Shown piece after piece: positions 22,774 to 27,944 of a DNA stretch of 27,944 nt. The notes under the pieces were generated by a model, which saw only the letters and a list, made by a program, of their open reading frames with translations, was not told the DNA's origin and ran no database searches. The position numbers and the translations under genes are program-made. Numbering within the stretch: the stretch's first letter is position 1; every line of letters begins with the position of its first letter. The DNA comes from a virus, in the IMG/VR virus record IMGVR_UViG_3300046656_000276, positions 1 through 27,944 of that record; one strand, 5' to 3'.

Positions 22774-22992
22774 CTAAAATGTCTGCTCGCTCGCTTGGAG
22801 CTCTTCGAGCGTCGCGACGCGCGGTGGTTTGGCGAATTGTACGCCTTCAGCAGCGGCCCATCCGAGCGCGCGCTCGACGTCCTCTTGCGACGCGCAGACG
22901 AGTTCTTCGACTACAGTGTCGACGCCGTGTCGGCCGCGCGCCGAAATGAACTCGACGCCGGCCGCGAACAAGCGCTGCGCGAGCAGCTGCAT
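22774..22992 (-). CDS. Small uncharacterised protein
   Basis: A 72-residue protein; start ATG 22992 overlaps the previous stop (TGATG); a GTG one codon earlier (22995) is an equally good start. It is mixed alpha/beta: MQLLAQRLFAAGVEFISARGRHG, then VEELVCASQEDVERALGWAAAEGVQFAKPP and an acidic tail. There are no cysteine pairs or membrane segments. No family recognised. Confidence 0.62.
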   Translation of the reverse strand: MQLLAQRLFAAGVEFISARGRHGVDTVVEELVCASQEDVERALGWAAAEGVQFAKPPRVATLEELQASEQTF

Positions 22993-23198
22993 CACCAGCT
23001 ACCGGCGATACCGTACGTGTCCTTGAGTAGACCCTGCGACAGTTCGTTCGGTCTCGAAACACCCGACGCCCAACGCGACACGGCTGCAGTCGACACCTTC
23101 ATGCGTTTCGCCATCGAGCGACGCGATGTCTTCTGCAGTGCAGCGAGCAACGTACGACGGCCCTGCGAAATCTTTTCCTTGCTCTTCTTCTTAGTCAT
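22992..23198 (-). CDS. Cro/XRE-type helix-turn-helix protein
   Basis: A 68-residue basic protein, ATG 23198 overlapping the terminase stop by 8 bases. Residues 28-50 are a clear helix-turn-helix: SMAKRMKVSTAAVSRWASG, with VSRWASG as recognition helix, flanked by a very basic N-terminus (TKKKSKEKISQGRRT). It is the size of Cro-type regulators. Translation is coupled to the terminase gene. It could regulate the following small genes or the late genes by binding the TGTGACC boxes upstream of the portal gene; the sequence does not tell. A DNA-recognition role in packaging is the alternative. Confidence 0.78.
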   Translation of the reverse strand: MTKKKSKEKISQGRRTLLAALQKTSRRSMAKRMKVSTAAVSRWASGVSRPNELSQGLLKDTYGIAGSW

Positions 23199-24852
23199 CT
23201 TGTTTCCAGGTCTTTTCGGCTGCGTATGGGTCGAACACCTGCTCGACGTCGTGCGGTGAATCATACTGTTTTGCAACATTTGGTGGCAAGTCCCCTCCTT
23301 GCAGCGAAAGCGGCTCCCACGTAGAAAGCGCAAGCGCGTCAAATGTGTCCGGCGACCGTCCGAGCACTTTCCGAATTTCGTCTTTCGGCGTGACCTTGAT
23401 GCGACCGTTCGTGGCCTGGTAATACTCGAATTGATGCAACTCTTTGGCGAGCTCGCCGTCTTCGACGATCGCGCCACCATCTCGAAACCAGCTGTCGAGG
23501 TTCGCGACGAGCTCGTCACGCATGCGATCATAGACTTGCGGCTTGCGCACAGCACGATCGCTCGCGCGCACCGCGACAAGTTCGAACATGCCCACGTTAG
23601 CCGGCAGTTCGAGGAAATTGCGCATCCGACCGAACAAGCTCGAACCAATAGAACCCTCGCGATCCATGACGACGACCGGCGTTTCGCGCGGCAATTTGAG
23701 CTCATTCAGCAACGCGACGAGTCGCACGAGGTGCTGTTCGTCGTTGAGTCCGGTGAATTTTTGTGCACTAAGCATCTTCAGACCGCGCCGCGGGACGAAC
23801 ACAGTCTTGTCGCCGGTGCCGGTCTCGCCGGCTGGATCGAGTCCGACGAACAAGCGCCCGGCCGGCTCGGTCTCTTGCCACCGACGTTCGGACATCATTA
23901 TCGTGTGGACGCTGAAGATTTTGCCTTCCTCGTGCAGCGCATGCTCGCCTTTGACGCGAATTTTGTATTGCGCGCTGTCTTCGCCCCATTCGAGCTTCTT
24001 CTCGTCGATCCACTCTTGTGTGGCGAGTCCAGGAATCGAGCCGTCGCGGTTCACCGCGGCCGCTTCTTCACTCGACACGGTCAACGTCTTATAAAGCTTC
24101 TTTTTGCTGTCGAACGCGTCGTAGAATTCACCCGAATTACGCGTCGGGTTACTAAATAGACACACGCGCGCGCCACCGGCGCGGTTGCCTTCGATAGCTT
24201 CGAAGATCTCGTCTGAGATGCCGGACGCCTCGTCGGGCAAATAGAGCAAATTTTTGCCCGAAATGCCGGCCACGGCTTCAGCTTCGCGCGCGGTGAAACC
24301 CACAACTTCGCGGAAGTCGGCCGATTTGAGACCAGTGCGCGCGAGCTCGCCTTGCTCGCCGTCGATGAGCGACGAATGTTCACACGGCCGCGTAATGCGC
24401 AGTCCGCTCGGGTCTTCCGCCTTGCATTCGAGACAACGACCACCGCGCGCACGCAACATGCGCAGTTCGCGCCACAAAATCTGGTCGACCTGTCGCGACG
24501 TCGTCGAAGTAAAGATTGCGCGCGCGTCGTCGAAACTGCAATACCACCACAGTGCAAGAATCGCGGCCGTTGTGCTCTTACCTATCTTGTGGCCGGAACG
24601 CACAGCGACGCGCGGATGGTCGCGCACAGCTTCCAAAATTTCACATTGCCGCTCCCACGGTCGGATTCCGAGGATCTGGCGCGCGAACAAGACCGGGTCT
24701 TTTTGATATAACGGCGACGGAAACCGAACTCGAGTCGAGAATGTGAGCTCAACGCGCAGCTTTTCGAGCAAATCTTCAGCAAACGTGTACGCCTGCTGCT
24801 TCTGCTTGTTGCGCTTGCGTTGGTCGACTTCGTGCTCGATCGTCGTCGTCAC
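23191..24852 (-). CDS. Terminase large subunit
   Basis: A 553-residue protein starting at GTG 24852 (GTGA overlap). The ATPase has Walker A SGHKIGKST (86-94), Walker B LLYLPDE (202-208) and a SNPT coupling segment (234-237). The RNase H-type nuclease domain shows VGLDPAGETGTGDKT (Asp339), VVVMDREGS (Asp397) and SPDTFDAL (Asp502/Asp505). It translocates and cuts DNA during head filling and interacts with the portal. Residues 137-160 contain Cys140, Cys143, Cys157 and His159 (RCLECK then PCEH), a possible zinc-binding insertion. N-terminal DPVLFARQILGIRPWERQ resembles other phage large terminases. Confidence 0.93.
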   Translation of the reverse strand: MTTTIEHEVDQRKRNKQKQQAYTFAEDLLEKLRVELTFSTRVRFPSPLYQKDPVLFARQILGIRPWERQCEILEAVRDHPRVAVRSGHKIGKSTTAAILALWWYCSFDDARAIFTSTTSRQVDQILWRELRMLRARGGRCLECKAEDPSGLRITRPCEHSSLIDGEQGELARTGLKSADFREVVGFTAREAEAVAGISGKNLLYLPDEASGISDEIFEAIEGNRAGGARVCLFSNPTRNSGEFYDAFDSKKKLYKTLTVSSEEAAAVNRDGSIPGLATQEWIDEKKLEWGEDSAQYKIRVKGEHALHEEGKIFSVHTIMMSERRWQETEPAGRLFVGLDPAGETGTGDKTVFVPRRGLKMLSAQKFTGLNDEQHLVRLVALLNELKLPRETPVVVMDREGSIGSSLFGRMRNFLELPANVGMFELVAVRASDRAVRKPQVYDRMRDELVANLDSWFRDGGAIVEDGELAKELHQFEYYQATNGRIKVTPKDEIRKVLGRSPDTFDALALSTWEPLSLQGGDLPPNVAKQYDSPHDVEQVFDPYAAEKTWKQDD

Positions 24853-25253: not shown

Positions 25254-25426
25254 TTCTCCTTCGTTGCTCGCACGAGCTCCTGTGTGGCGCGCGCGTTCGC
25301 TTCGATGGCCAGCGTGATGCGCTGCAACGCCGCGGCGTCGTCGGCGCGCGCCGGCGCCGGCCGCTCGCACACCGCGAACGTGATGCCAGTCCAAAATGCA
25401 AACGCTATCACCATAAACATTTTCAT
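25244..25426 (-). CDS. Small signal-anchored helical protein
   Basis: A 60-residue protein, ATG 25426 overlapping the previous stop (ATGA). The N-terminus KMFMVIAFAFWTGITFAVC is a hydrophobic signal/anchor. The remaining ~40 residues are a charged amphipathic helix (AAALQRITLAIEANARATQEL). Cys20 follows AV but the lipobox is imperfect (FAVC), so lipidation is uncertain. It looks like a tiny envelope protein of the kind used for superinfection exclusion or lysis modulation. The evidence is only architecture. Confidence 0.62.
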   Translation of the reverse strand: MKMFMVIAFAFWTGITFAVCERPAPARADDAAALQRITLAIEANARATQELVRATKEKCR

Positions 25427-25677
25427 ATTGCCTCCGGTTGATCTTCGTTCCGCCGCTTCGCGCGGCTTTTGCGCGCCATGACGCGCATACGTCTCTCGCA
25501 GCTCTTGCAGCGCGTCTTGCTCGGCTGCGCCTTCGAGGGGCAGTCCCAACACTTGCCGGCCGCGCGCTGGCTGGTGCGGAACGCAGCGCGCGCGGCCGCG
25601 CGGCGCGCGCGGCATGGGGCGCACCGGTTCACCTGCTCGCGACACGCTTCGCACCGATATCCGTGATTGTGCGGCAT
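25423..25677 (-). CDS. Double zinc-knuckle basic protein
   Basis: An 84-residue protein starting at ATG 25677 (TGATG overlap). It has two four-cysteine clusters: C9-x2-C12-x6-C19-x2-C22 and C43-x2-C46-x10-C57-x2-C60, each able to hold one zinc. The linker and tail are extremely basic (RARRAAARAAFRTSQRAA; RMRVMARKSRAKRR). Such proteins usually bind nucleic acid or act as small scaffolds. A longer frame upstream consists only of unlikely Arg-rich sequence from the neighbouring frame. Function unknown. Confidence 0.72.
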   Translation of the reverse strand: MPHNHGYRCEACREQVNRCAPCRARRAAARAAFRTSQRAAGKCWDCPSKAQPSKTRCKSCERRMRVMARKSRAKRRNEDQPEAI

Positions 25678-25874
25678 CACGAACGCCGACCGATGAAGCC
25701 GGCGCGGCACAGCTCTTCGAGCTGCGCGAGTGCGTGTTTGTCGCCGGCCGCGACGCGTTGGCACAATGCGACGATGCGCGGATCGCACGCGTCGAGTGCG
25801 TCGGCACGAGCGAACTGCGCCGCGCCGGCGAGCCAATGGCGGGCAAGATCCTCAGGTTGTTGGTTTCGGTGCAT
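25677..25874 (-). CDS. Small helical protein
   Basis: A 65-residue protein, ATG 25874, overlapping the preceding gene by 23 bases, which is longer than the usual overlap and makes the start less certain. It is helical and Ala/Leu rich (PEDLARHWLAGAAQFARADAL, LAQLEELCRAGF) with three cysteines. Its stop overlaps the next start (TGATG). No family recognised. Confidence 0.55.
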   Translation of the reverse strand: MHRNQQPEDLARHWLAGAAQFARADALDACDPRIVALCQRVAAGDKHALAQLEELCRAGFIGRRS

Positions 25875-26073
25875 GGCGGTGTCCTTGAATAACGAGCGTT
25901 GCGCCTGACCAGAAATCGAAACTCCAGATACGCGCGTCGCTCTCGTCTTCTGGTCGCATCTCCTGCCAAAGTCCGTACGTGGTCACGGTCGTTGTACCAA
26001 CCGGTTTCACCGGCACGCCGGCGATCCTCGTCGGCAGCGGCCGCAGCCGCGGAGTGTGCAAACGCCGCGTCAT
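25852..26073 (-). CDS. First gene of the second early unit, uncharacterised, leaderless start
   Basis: A 73-residue protein, ATG 26073. The start codon lies only six bases downstream of a -10-like TATCTT, so its mRNA probably begins at or very near the ATG. The start codon itself is inside one arm of a 13-bp inverted repeat (26064-26076), so a bound repressor would cover it. The protein has a basic Pro-rich N-terminus and a beta-type middle (KPVGTTTVTTYGLWQEM, ARIWSFDFWSGATLVIQGH). Function unknown. No ribosome-binding site is visible, which agrees with a leaderless start. Confidence 0.6.
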   Translation of the reverse strand: MTRRLHTPRLRPLPTRIAGVPVKPVGTTTVTTYGLWQEMRPEDESDARIWSFDFWSGATLVIQGHRHAPKPTT

Positions 26074-26106
26074 GGGACGAAGATAACACGCACCCCATGA
26101 CGCGGC
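26064..26106. repeat. Perfect 13-bp inverted repeat spanning a start codon
   Basis: GCCGCGTCATGGG at 26064-26076 is the exact reverse complement of CCCATGACGCGGC at 26094-26106. The arms are 17 bases apart (30 bases centre to centre, about three helical turns). The left arm holds the start codon of the 73-residue gene and the right arm lies in the promoter spacer and -35. It is the strongest operator candidate in the window. Confidence 0.72.
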
Positions 26107-26116
26107 AAGGGGGCGG
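26080..26116 (-). promoter_or_regulatory. Promoter A with CCGCCCCCTTG and CGTCATGGGG
   Basis: On the minus strand TTGCCG (-35, 26103-26108) and TATCTT (-10, 26080-26085) are 17 bases apart, and the -10 ends six bases before ATG 26073. CCGCCCCCTTG (26106-26116) and CGTCATGGGG (26093-26102) are shared exactly with promoter B at 27179-27231. It lies in the only gap of the 26350-22092 array and so should drive the run of genes from 26073 through terminase. Confidence 0.6.
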
Positions 26117-26350
26117 TTATCTGGTCTCGTGCGCTCGGCACGCGCGTTCGTGCGATTTGGCGAGCGCTTCGAGTTCGACACGAGCAGTCGCGAGCTCGCG
26201 TTGAATGCGCGGCAAATCGCCGACCGCGGCCGCGCGATAGGCGTTCGAAATGGTGTCGTTGAGCTGCGCGATGCGTTCGGCCAATTGTTCGAGCGCAGCT
26301 TCGAGCTGCGCACGTGACAATTGCACGGTAGCGGTTGCAGATCGGATCAT
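26117..26350 (-). CDS. Small coiled-coil protein
   Basis: A 77-residue protein starting at ATG 26350, ATGA overlap with the preceding gene. It is a nearly continuous coiled coil (RAQLEAALEQLAERIAQLND, IQRELATARVELEALAKSH) interrupted by SNAYRAAAVGD. No DNA-binding motif is obvious. A long frame upstream is rejected because it reads through the previous gene in another frame. It closes the first small-gene cluster and is followed by promoter A. Confidence 0.65.
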   Translation of the reverse strand: MIRSATATVQLSRAQLEAALEQLAERIAQLNDTISNAYRAAAVGDLPRIQRELATARVELEALAKSHERACRAHETR

Positions 26351-26532
26351 TTCGTCGACATCCAAATGCGTTTGGCGTGGTCGAGCAATTCGCGATGCTC
26401 GGGACACAACGCGAGAGCAAGCGCGGCCGGGTTGAGCTCGCGAACGAGCAGGATAGCCAGCACGGCGACACCTGCAGCGTCCGGCGAGAGTCGTTGGCTG
26501 CGTGCGAGACACGCGGTACAGTTGTATGACAT
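26347..26532 (-). CDS. Small zinc-binding type protein
   Basis: A 61-residue protein, ATG 26532 sharing a base with the previous stop (TGATG). It carries C5-x2-C8 (CTAC) near the N-terminus and CPEH (Cys43, His46) near residue 45, a plausible zinc site, with a hydrophobic helix in between (AAGVAVLAILLVREL). This helix is long enough to be membrane-inserting or a buried core. Function unknown. Confidence 0.62.
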   Translation of the reverse strand: MSYNCTACLARSQRLSPDAAGVAVLAILLVRELNPAALALALCPEHRELLDHAKRIWMSTK

Positions 26533-27074
26533 CAGATGTCGAGCCCCCTGTACTGCGTGACGAAGATGAACCGGCCGGCGTTGCGCGTATACGGCTCGGC
26601 CGCGAACGCGCGACCAGCTCCTCGGTACTCGTACTGCCAGCCGGTCAATTCTTGAGCCAGCTCGGCCGAAGTGTCATCGAAACCGAGCTCCCGGACGCGT
26701 TCGCGATCATAGACAGCCCAACACAAGCTCGAGCCCTCGTCGTCACTCGCGCGGCAACCGGCCGCGATAAGCGCACCACCATTGGACAACGCGTCCCAGG
26801 CTTCCTGCGTGCACGCCAGCGCGTATCGCGCGCACGCAGCTTCGTCGCGAGCGAGCCGCGCGGCTTCGGTGGCCTGCAGCTGCAGCAATGCGACGTGCTC
26901 GAGCGTTGGGAAGACATAACGTGCACCATACCGGCGCGGTAACTTGTCGAGCTCGATCGCGACCTCGTACGCCTTGCGTGCCACTTCGGACGCGCCGGCC
27001 GACAATTTTTGGAAATGCGCCGCGCGCTCGACGAGCTCGTCGGCTTCAGCCATGAATTCGGGGTTTGGTCTCAT
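26532..27074 (-). CDS. Uncharacterised helical protein
   Basis: A 180-residue protein starting at ATG 27074, overlapping the tiny upstream gene by four bases (ATGA). Residues 1-110 are helical (EADELVERAAHFQKLSAG..., VALLQLQATEAARLARDEAAC). The second half has a Gly-rich turn and aromatic beta segments (SLCWAVYDRERVREL, then TGWQYEYRGAGRAFAAEPY, RFIFVTQYRGLDI). No family recognised. It is the largest unit of the first small-gene cluster, so an early takeover or anti-host role is conceivable, with no direct evidence. Confidence 0.68.
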   Translation of the reverse strand: MRPNPEFMAEADELVERAAHFQKLSAGASEVARKAYEVAIELDKLPRRYGARYVFPTLEHVALLQLQATEAARLARDEAACARYALACTQEAWDALSNGGALIAAGCRASDDEGSSLCWAVYDRERVRELGFDDTSAELAQELTGWQYEYRGAGRAFAAEPYTRNAGRFIFVTQYRGLDI

Positions 27075-27178
27075 TTGGTTCCTTCGCAACGATGTGGGAA
27101 CGGGCGCCCAGCAGCACCCAGGATGACAACGCGGCCGCAGCATGCGCAACGCGGTCTATGATCTGTGGTCGTCTTCAT
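27071..27178 (-). CDS. Tiny CxxC zinc protein, leaderless start
   Basis: A 35-residue protein, ATG 27178. It contains Cys11, Cys13, Cys14 (CACC) and a C-terminal HRC (His29, Cys31), so a single zinc site is likely, in a basic Gly-rich frame. The stop overlaps the next start (ATGA), which supports it as a true gene. ATG follows a perfect 14-bp palindrome and a -10 seven bases upstream, with no ribosome-binding site. It is therefore the first gene of a leaderless transcript. Confidence 0.6.
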   Translation of the reverse strand: MKTTTDHRPRCACCGRVVILGAAGRPFPHRCEGTK

Positions 27179-27231
27179 ATTTACTAGTAAATCACAGCCC
27201 CATGACGTGCACAAGGGGGCGGGGTTAATGG
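27179..27231 (-). promoter_or_regulatory. Promoter B with a 14-bp palindrome before the start codon
   Basis: Minus strand: CCGCCCCCTTG (27212-27222), TTGTGC as -35 (27209-27214), CGTCATGGGG (27198-27207) in the 17-base spacer, TTTACT as -10 (27186-27191), then ATG 27178 seven bases after the -10. The -10 lies inside ATTTACTAGTAAAT (27179-27192), a perfect palindrome touching the start codon. Upstream, TTAATG / CATTAA (27225-27240) forms a short hairpin. Confidence 0.6.
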
Positions 27232-27257
27232 GCGCATTAATTCGAAGCGCAACCCCC

Positions 27258-27866
27258 TCATTTGTAGGTCTCGAGGACGGCCAGAACGTCCTTGGCTGCG
27301 GCCGGGTGCTTGCCGAGCACTCGAACGATGGCGCGCGCGAGCCGCTGCCATTCCGGGTGTTCTCGCACAAGTTTGTCTTCGAGCATCATTTTAGAGAGCT
27401 CGAGCTTGTGCCGCAAACCGAGCAGGCTACCCTCTGCGGCCGTGAGCTTGATGGTCTCGGATGGCAACAGACCTTCCGCCGCGGCCGTCGTTCGGAGCCG
27501 AGTGAGCAGCCGATCGCAGGCTTCGAGCGTTGTTGGTTGACCCGTCGGCGACAATTGATCAGGTGGCTGCCTGACGTCTGCTGCCGTCTGGCCGGGCATA
27601 GTCACCCATGCCTGTGGCGGTATGCCGTACAGTGTATGCAATTTGGCACGCGTATCGGGTGCTGGTACCTTCCGACCGTATTTCCAATCGACCACGGTTT
27701 GGCGCGAGCGGACGCCGGTCGCAGCCCGCACCTGCTCGAGCGACTTCTGCACCAGCAGTAGCAATCGCTGGCCTTCATTGCGGACAGCAAGCTTGTCTGG
27801 CGGACCGTCTGCAATTGCTGTCTGTTCGTCGTCCTGTTTCACGTGACGTACTTTCTGTGTTGTCAC
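27258..27866 (-). CDS. Helix-turn-helix protein, regulator or small terminase candidate
   Basis: A 202-residue protein, GTG 27866, with no ribosome-binding site. Residues about 34-86 are an XRE-type helix-turn-helix (LLLLVQKSLEQVRAATG, RSRQTVVDWKYGRKVPAP, RAKLHTLYGIPPQAW). Residues 110-202 are helical and resemble the oligomerising C-terminal half of small terminase proteins (LLTRLRTTAAAEGLLPSETIK, then EHPEWQRLARAIVRVLGKHP). It may be a small terminase or an autoregulator; both use HTH DNA binding. It is the first gene of the leftward array in this window, preceded by a gap containing CGTCATGGGG, so control of its own gene and of promoters A and B is a reasonable guess. Confidence 0.75.
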   Translation of the reverse strand: MTTQKVRHVKQDDEQTAIADGPPDKLAVRNEGQRLLLLVQKSLEQVRAATGVRSRQTVVDWKYGRKVPAPDTRAKLHTLYGIPPQAWVTMPGQTAADVRQPPDQLSPTGQPTTLEACDRLLTRLRTTAAAEGLLPSETIKLTAAEGSLLGLRHKLELSKMMLEDKLVREHPEWQRLARAIVRVLGKHPAAAKDVLAVLETYK

Positions 27867-27944
27867 TTATGAGACGTTACGTGCTCACGTCATGGGGTGT
27901 CCGCTAACCCGGACTACGAAAGATCTCCGGAGCGTTCTTTCGAC
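27867..27944. promoter_or_regulatory. Gap at right edge with operator copy C and a 7-bp hairpin
   Basis: CGTCATGGGG at 27888-27897 lies on the plus strand, i.e. opposite in orientation to copies A and B. On the minus strand CGGACA and TAACGT, 18 bases apart, lie just before GTG 27866, a weak promoter-like pair that would also be leaderless. CGAAAGA (27917-27923) and TCTTTCG (27936-27942) form a 7-bp inverted repeat with a 12-base loop holding CTCCGGAG. A divergent rightward promoter may begin here, but its gene is outside the window. Confidence 0.4.

Follow-up and report, generated by a model that had tools for sequence, protein, structure and literature searches.

A repeated 10 nt word with a promoter-like setting in the intergenic gaps beside the cos end of an uncultured myophage

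The phage record IMGVR_UViG_3300046656_000276 from IMG/VR, a contig of 27,944 bases that we analyzed over its whole length (the window), carries the 10-mer CGTCATGGGG in three intergenic gaps of its right-hand part. This repeat is real and is associated with predicted start codons. On balance, we lean toward the interpretation that three promoters located near the cohesive end site (cos) of the phage carry the word as a phage-specific operator or activator site. Elements of this kind are known from the stoperators and the start-associated sequences (SAS) of other phages, and this member is new; among the literature matches listed (10 of 30 papers that contain the string, all of them unrelated), there was no report of CGTCATGGGG as a phage operator.

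Exact copies of the word occupy positions 26093 to 26102 (copy A) and 27198 to 27207 (copy B) on the minus strand and positions 27888 to 27897 (copy C) on the plus strand, and none occurs elsewhere in the window, as the original prediction had proposed. In the vicinity of the motif, every predicted gene lies on the minus strand. Copies A and B each end 19 nt before a predicted ATG start codon (at 26073 and 27178, respectively). Copy C, which reads CCCCATGACG toward the neighboring gene for a probable small terminase subunit (TerS), stops 21 nt short of the GTG at 27866. The near match CGTCATGGGA that had been noted beside copy A also exists, although it lies at 26068 to 26077 and not at 26069 to 26078.

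The rarity first claimed for the word had to be recast. Although CGTCATGGGG is expected only 0.09 times per dinucleotide-shuffled window, the probability of a single word overstates the case. The window is GC-rich and holds 546 distinct 10-mers that are present at least three times, versus about 249 in simulations. Because CGTCATGGGG was picked after the sequence had been read, the proper test is the sharing of words among gaps, and we therefore examined all ten intergenic gaps of at least 15 nt in the window. CCCCATGACG proved to be the only 10-mer found in at least three of these gaps, and any such 10-mer arose in only 1 of 10,000 simulated gap sets. The three gaps that contain the word are every gap of at least 15 nt from 25.2 kb to the right end, and the other seven gaps lack it. 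We also collected loci related through the large terminase subunit (TerL), of which 22 were found first and then 80, the best being about 65% identical. A 9-mer scan of about 65 such loci revealed only two others with a word common to three gaps, and both of these words (CGCGAGCTC and ACGGCGGCG) are GC-rich and codon-like.

Copies A and B agree beyond the 10-mer itself. On the coding strand, copy A is arranged as CCGCCCCCTTG-CCG-CGTCATGGGG-N19-ATG, copy B as CCGCCCCCTTG-TGCA-CGTCATGGGG-N19-ATG and copy C as CCCCATGACG-N21-GTG. The 11 nt upstream box CCGCCCCCTTG resides on the minus strand at 26106 to 26116 in gap A (3 nt from the 10-mer; detected as a repeat and also read from the sequence) and at 27212 to 27222 in gap B (4 nt from the 10-mer; read from the sequence). 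Both boxes are identical between A and B, and the 3 to 4 nt spacer and the outer flanks have diverged. Copy C shares 12 nt with A and 12 nt with B.

The spacing of these boxes resembles that of promoters, with weak hexamer matches. The TTG within the upstream box of gap A opens a -35-like TTGCCG, which is followed after 17 nt by a -10-like TATCTT (26080 to 26085, minus strand) that lies 6 nt before the ATG and scores under the cut-off of a generic promoter scan. The corresponding arrangement in gap B is TTGTGC-17-TTTACT-7-ATG. When the start codon is taken as +1, the 10-mer spans positions -29 to -20, and the TTG of the upstream box is near -35. No Shine-Dalgarno sequence was seen between box and start in the gaps. 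The TTTACT of gap B (27186 to 27191) is held within a perfect 14 bp palindrome, ATTTACTAGTAAAT, at 27179 to 27192, directly before the ATG at 27178; this is the only perfect 14 bp palindrome in the window that directly precedes a predicted start codon. Two other functions were considered for the gaps and rejected. Copy C is not a rightward promoter, as it has neither an ATG at 19 nt nor a TTG box, and terminators are not indicated because hairpin-like matches are no commoner than in shuffled sequences.

The original prediction placed the three gaps in an early region, and this was not supported. The window belongs to a cos-type myophage, and its right end is the true physical terminus of the genome and not an assembly break. 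Its terminal sequence on the right side of cos, GTCGAAAGAACGCTCCGGAGATC (27922 to 27944, minus strand), has the same end and phase as in related records. Among 72 of these, 20 end within the 170 nt that precede the TerS homology, where about 0.7 would be expected, and most of the 20 start in the same phase, 12 to 15 nt before an (A/T)CCGG-like core. The start of record L198 corresponds to base 3187 of L199, and that of L205 to base 4344 of L206 and L207; L199, L206 and L207 cross the site. Three further records of 44.6 to 48.1 kb (L190, L202 and L236) run from the cos start to a left end just past the element ACAGTNNNGGG(G). Both ends lack about 10 nt that site-crossing records have (e.g. GCCACTGGGC in L199), which would fit a trimmed 3′ single-stranded cohesive end. 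To the left of cos, the family conserves the element CCCCC-N5-(A)ACAGTNNNGGGG, in which ACAGT is constant. The order of the segment is cos, TerS, accessory genes and TerL. Given this terminus and the probable TerS gene, the gaps lie between cos and the terminase and do not form part of an early regulon.

The favored interpretation is that each gap contains a promoter controlled through the repeated word. Promoter C would serve the small terminase gene, and promoters B and A would drive two groups of accessory genes that lie between TerS and TerL. A DNA-binding regulator positioned between the -35 and -10 boxes could block or activate RNA polymerase, and promoters located so near to start codons would produce leaderless mRNAs. 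We infer promoter activity, leaderless starts and operator function. Classical phage operators are dyad-symmetric sites at the promoters of a regulator and its targets; the 10-mer has an approximate dyad centered on CATG (CAC..CATG..GTG), and its promoter boxes are weak. With such a dyad, the reversed orientation of copy C suits an operator more than a core promoter element. From the small-regulon operator that was originally proposed, we retain a small set of cis sites that are confined to gaps, with one copy reversed and in promoter-like positions, and discard the early repressor regulon.

Several observations weigh against a control site. No regulator is tied to the word, and no repressor was identified in the 27.9 kb record. 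A generic promoter scan detected no sigma-70 site in the three gaps, and the -35 and -10 hexamers of copy C are weak. ATG-ACN start codons by themselves yield near matches to the word. The two open reading frames (ORFs) that lie behind the equal 19 nt distances have weak coding statistics. The 35-amino-acid ORF led by copy B (27071 to 27178, minus strand) has a stop that overlaps the next start (ATGA), and codon usage alone gives it no support; for the 73-amino-acid ORF led by copy A (25852 to 26073, minus strand), codon usage is weak. Finally, about 85 related records contain no exact word in the corresponding gaps and no repeated word, and a few hold a single stray copy.

This last result bears on a prediction made at the outset, namely that the word should recur in the same gaps of relatives. 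The exact word is absent there, although the force of this finding is reduced by the distance of the nearest relative, whose terminase is only about 65% identical. A fast-changing operator is expected to be missing at 65% identity or less, and its absence is not decisive, but comparison lends no support to function. Searches with the two-box DNA pattern returned only 3 matches, in contigs of 58 to 128 kb, which is about chance level, and a looser version of the pattern gave many chance matches. A host-wide element was also considered and rejected: a delta-proteobacterial metagenome-assembled genome (MAG) with a related TerL has 25 copies versus 19 for the reversed control, which corresponds to chance. 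Related TerL genes in bacterial MAGs (L249 and L250, from a delta proteobacterium and from one labeled Actinomycetota) hint at hosts.

Other letters occupy comparable positions in some relatives. In the gap after TerS, L217 and L219 carry TATAAT-6-start, L172 carries TACAAT-6-ATG, and in L199 GTGCGATACTAAATATATG takes the place of the window's GTGATTTACTAGTAAATATG. Such TATAAT-like hexamers 6 nt before starts in these four relatives point to leaderless mRNAs in part of the family; most relatives have no clear -10/start layout in this gap. Two gaps between TerS and TerL of L182 (about 2080 to 2100 and 2382 to 2402) share a different 20 nt box, TTTTGATTTTTGTGTGGACA, with a -10-like hexamer after it. 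Therefore, at least one further phage has repeated promoter boxes in this segment, although their letters differ.

Two known classes of phage element resemble the repeat. Like the stoperators of L5-like (cluster A) mycobacteriophages, CGTCATGGGG is a short, asymmetric word that is repeated in short intergenic spaces and at promoters and is a proposed site for a phage regulator; its three copies are found in gaps only. L5 carries more than 20 stoperator 13-mers across its genome, with an orientation that follows transcription (PMC9283540). In contrast, the window has three 10-mers in one segment and no known repressor, and its copies A and B point with the operon while C is reversed. The SAS and extended SAS (ESAS) of cluster K mycobacteriophages (PMC3203893) are likewise repeated words at near-fixed distances before starts, and some SAS have inverted repeats upstream. 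The near-constant distances of 19, 19 and 21 nt in the window match this description, provided that the small predicted ORFs are genuine. The window differs from SAS/ESAS in that the box ends 19 to 21 nt from the start, no Shine-Dalgarno sequence was seen with it, and it is present in three copies. A start-associated repeat would be expected at homologous genes of related phages, but the word is absent from the gaps of the related records scanned.

The candidate regulators are the HTH (helix-turn-helix) protein encoded between copies B and C, a second HTH protein of 68 amino acids, a protein encoded in the part of the genome that the record lacks and a host factor. The first of these (27258 to 27866, minus strand; 202 amino acids, with an N-terminal HTH followed by a helical domain) had been taken as one of two HTH proteins acting on the regulon, but it is probably the small terminase subunit. 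Such subunits are encoded beside TerL, have an N-terminal HTH and a central helical oligomerization region, and measure about 15 to 21 kDa (PMC9611059). The protein in the window likewise has TerL in its neighborhood (23191 to 24852, minus strand; PHROG phrog_2, E 1e-27), an HTH and a helical region. Its predicted fold comprises HTH helices at residues 31 to 87 and further helices at 114 to 200 (predicted TM-score 0.39), and profile searches place a homologue upstream of TerL in most related loci, often directly adjacent. A Foldseek search with this fold returned mostly XRE-type HTH regulators as top matches, none with E < 0.001, and the assignment therefore rests on gene position and layout. 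No close relative was found: direct searches of viral contigs with TerS and with a 180-amino-acid protein gave no match, and neither did a phage collection.

The 68-amino-acid HTH protein (22992 to 23198, minus strand) is matched by the TerS profile and follows TerL in most relatives, which places the large terminase gene between two related HTH domains; a direct BLASTP comparison of this protein to TerS was not significant. Either TerS or this paralogue might also regulate transcription, such that a packaging protein, acting on one word next to cos and at two more promoters, would control its own gene together with the cos-proximal accessory genes and couple packaging to late expression. We consider this dual role improbable.

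Among explanations that dispense with an operator, one holds that copies A and B are remnants of a promoter cassette that was copied and imported with the accessory genes of 25.2 to 27.2 kb, with no common regulation and with C as a partial chance match. Consistent with such an origin, nearly all genes from 25.4 to 27.2 kb have no counterpart in relatives, and the A and B repeats flank the genes at 26117 to 27178. However, two identical blocks amid a diverged spacer and diverged outer flanks point to constraint and not to recent copying, and C has 12 nt in common with each of the other copies. We regard the cassette explanation as unlikely.

More doubtful is a role in packaging, in which the word would be recognized by the HTH of TerS in the manner of cosB or pac sites, with C adjoining the cut and A and B as extra copies. 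Like those sites, the word is close to both the cut at cos and the TerS gene: 47 bp separate copy C from the genome end, and the gene lies between B and C. In addition, L004/L034/L219 carries AGTCATGGGG within the conserved element just left of cos. On inspection, this match consists of CAGT+CAT+GGGG, which is the L004 version of ACAGTNNNGGGG and is not common to other relatives. The cosB interpretation fails on the constant ACAGT of the family element, which is absent from the window word. Furthermore, the distance to cos is 1.85 kb for A and 0.75 kb for B, and in none of the relatives does the interval from cos to TerS contain the word.

There is only a slim chance that the word acts as part of an RNA element. 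Gap A contains a perfect 13 bp inverted repeat, GCCGCGTCATGGG/CCCATGACGCGGC, at 26064 to 26106 on the minus strand, whose arms are 17 nt apart and include copy A and the near match at 26068 to 26077. The repeat encloses the -10 hexamer, and its right arm holds the ATG of the ORF at 25852 to 26073. The RNA is predicted to fold with -37.2 kcal/mol (z -2.5). According to this model, the hairpin would hide the start codon in a read-through mRNA, whereas an mRNA from promoter A would lack the left arm and be translated. A precedent exists in the T4 lysozyme gene e, where a hairpin contains an internal late promoter (PMC3014915), much as gap A has its start codon in a hairpin and a promoter-like box in the loop. 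The likeness to T4 is restricted to gap A, and no late sigma factor is known here. Gaps B and C form no comparable structure (z -0.4 and -1.1), which leaves the shared word unexplained; the gap A hairpin is therefore at most an addition. Very improbable, finally, is the production of the repeats by chance or start-codon bias from ATG-ACG starts and GC-rich composition: although 9 one-mismatch matches, some in coding DNA and part of them on ATG-ACN starts, occur where 2.25 are expected, and many 10-mers recur in the window, the gap sharing is rarely reproduced in simulations, and the second 11 nt box and the equal 19 nt distances of A and B are additional agreement.

The window encodes the proteins of a contractile-tailed phage, with a portal, head protease, major head protein, tail sheath, tape measure and baseplate. 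Between TerS and TerL, positions 25423 to 27178 of the minus strand hold a run of small, mostly overlapping predicted genes for which no counterpart was found in relatives.

If the operator interpretation is correct, CGTCATGGGG represents a compact gene control site with leaderless-type promoters in an uncultured myophage family whose host is possibly deltaproteobacterial. It would also imply that, within the cos-terminase segment, relatives keep their gene layout but exchange the control boxes. A by-product of more general use is the mapped cos end of the family, with its flanking ACAGT element.
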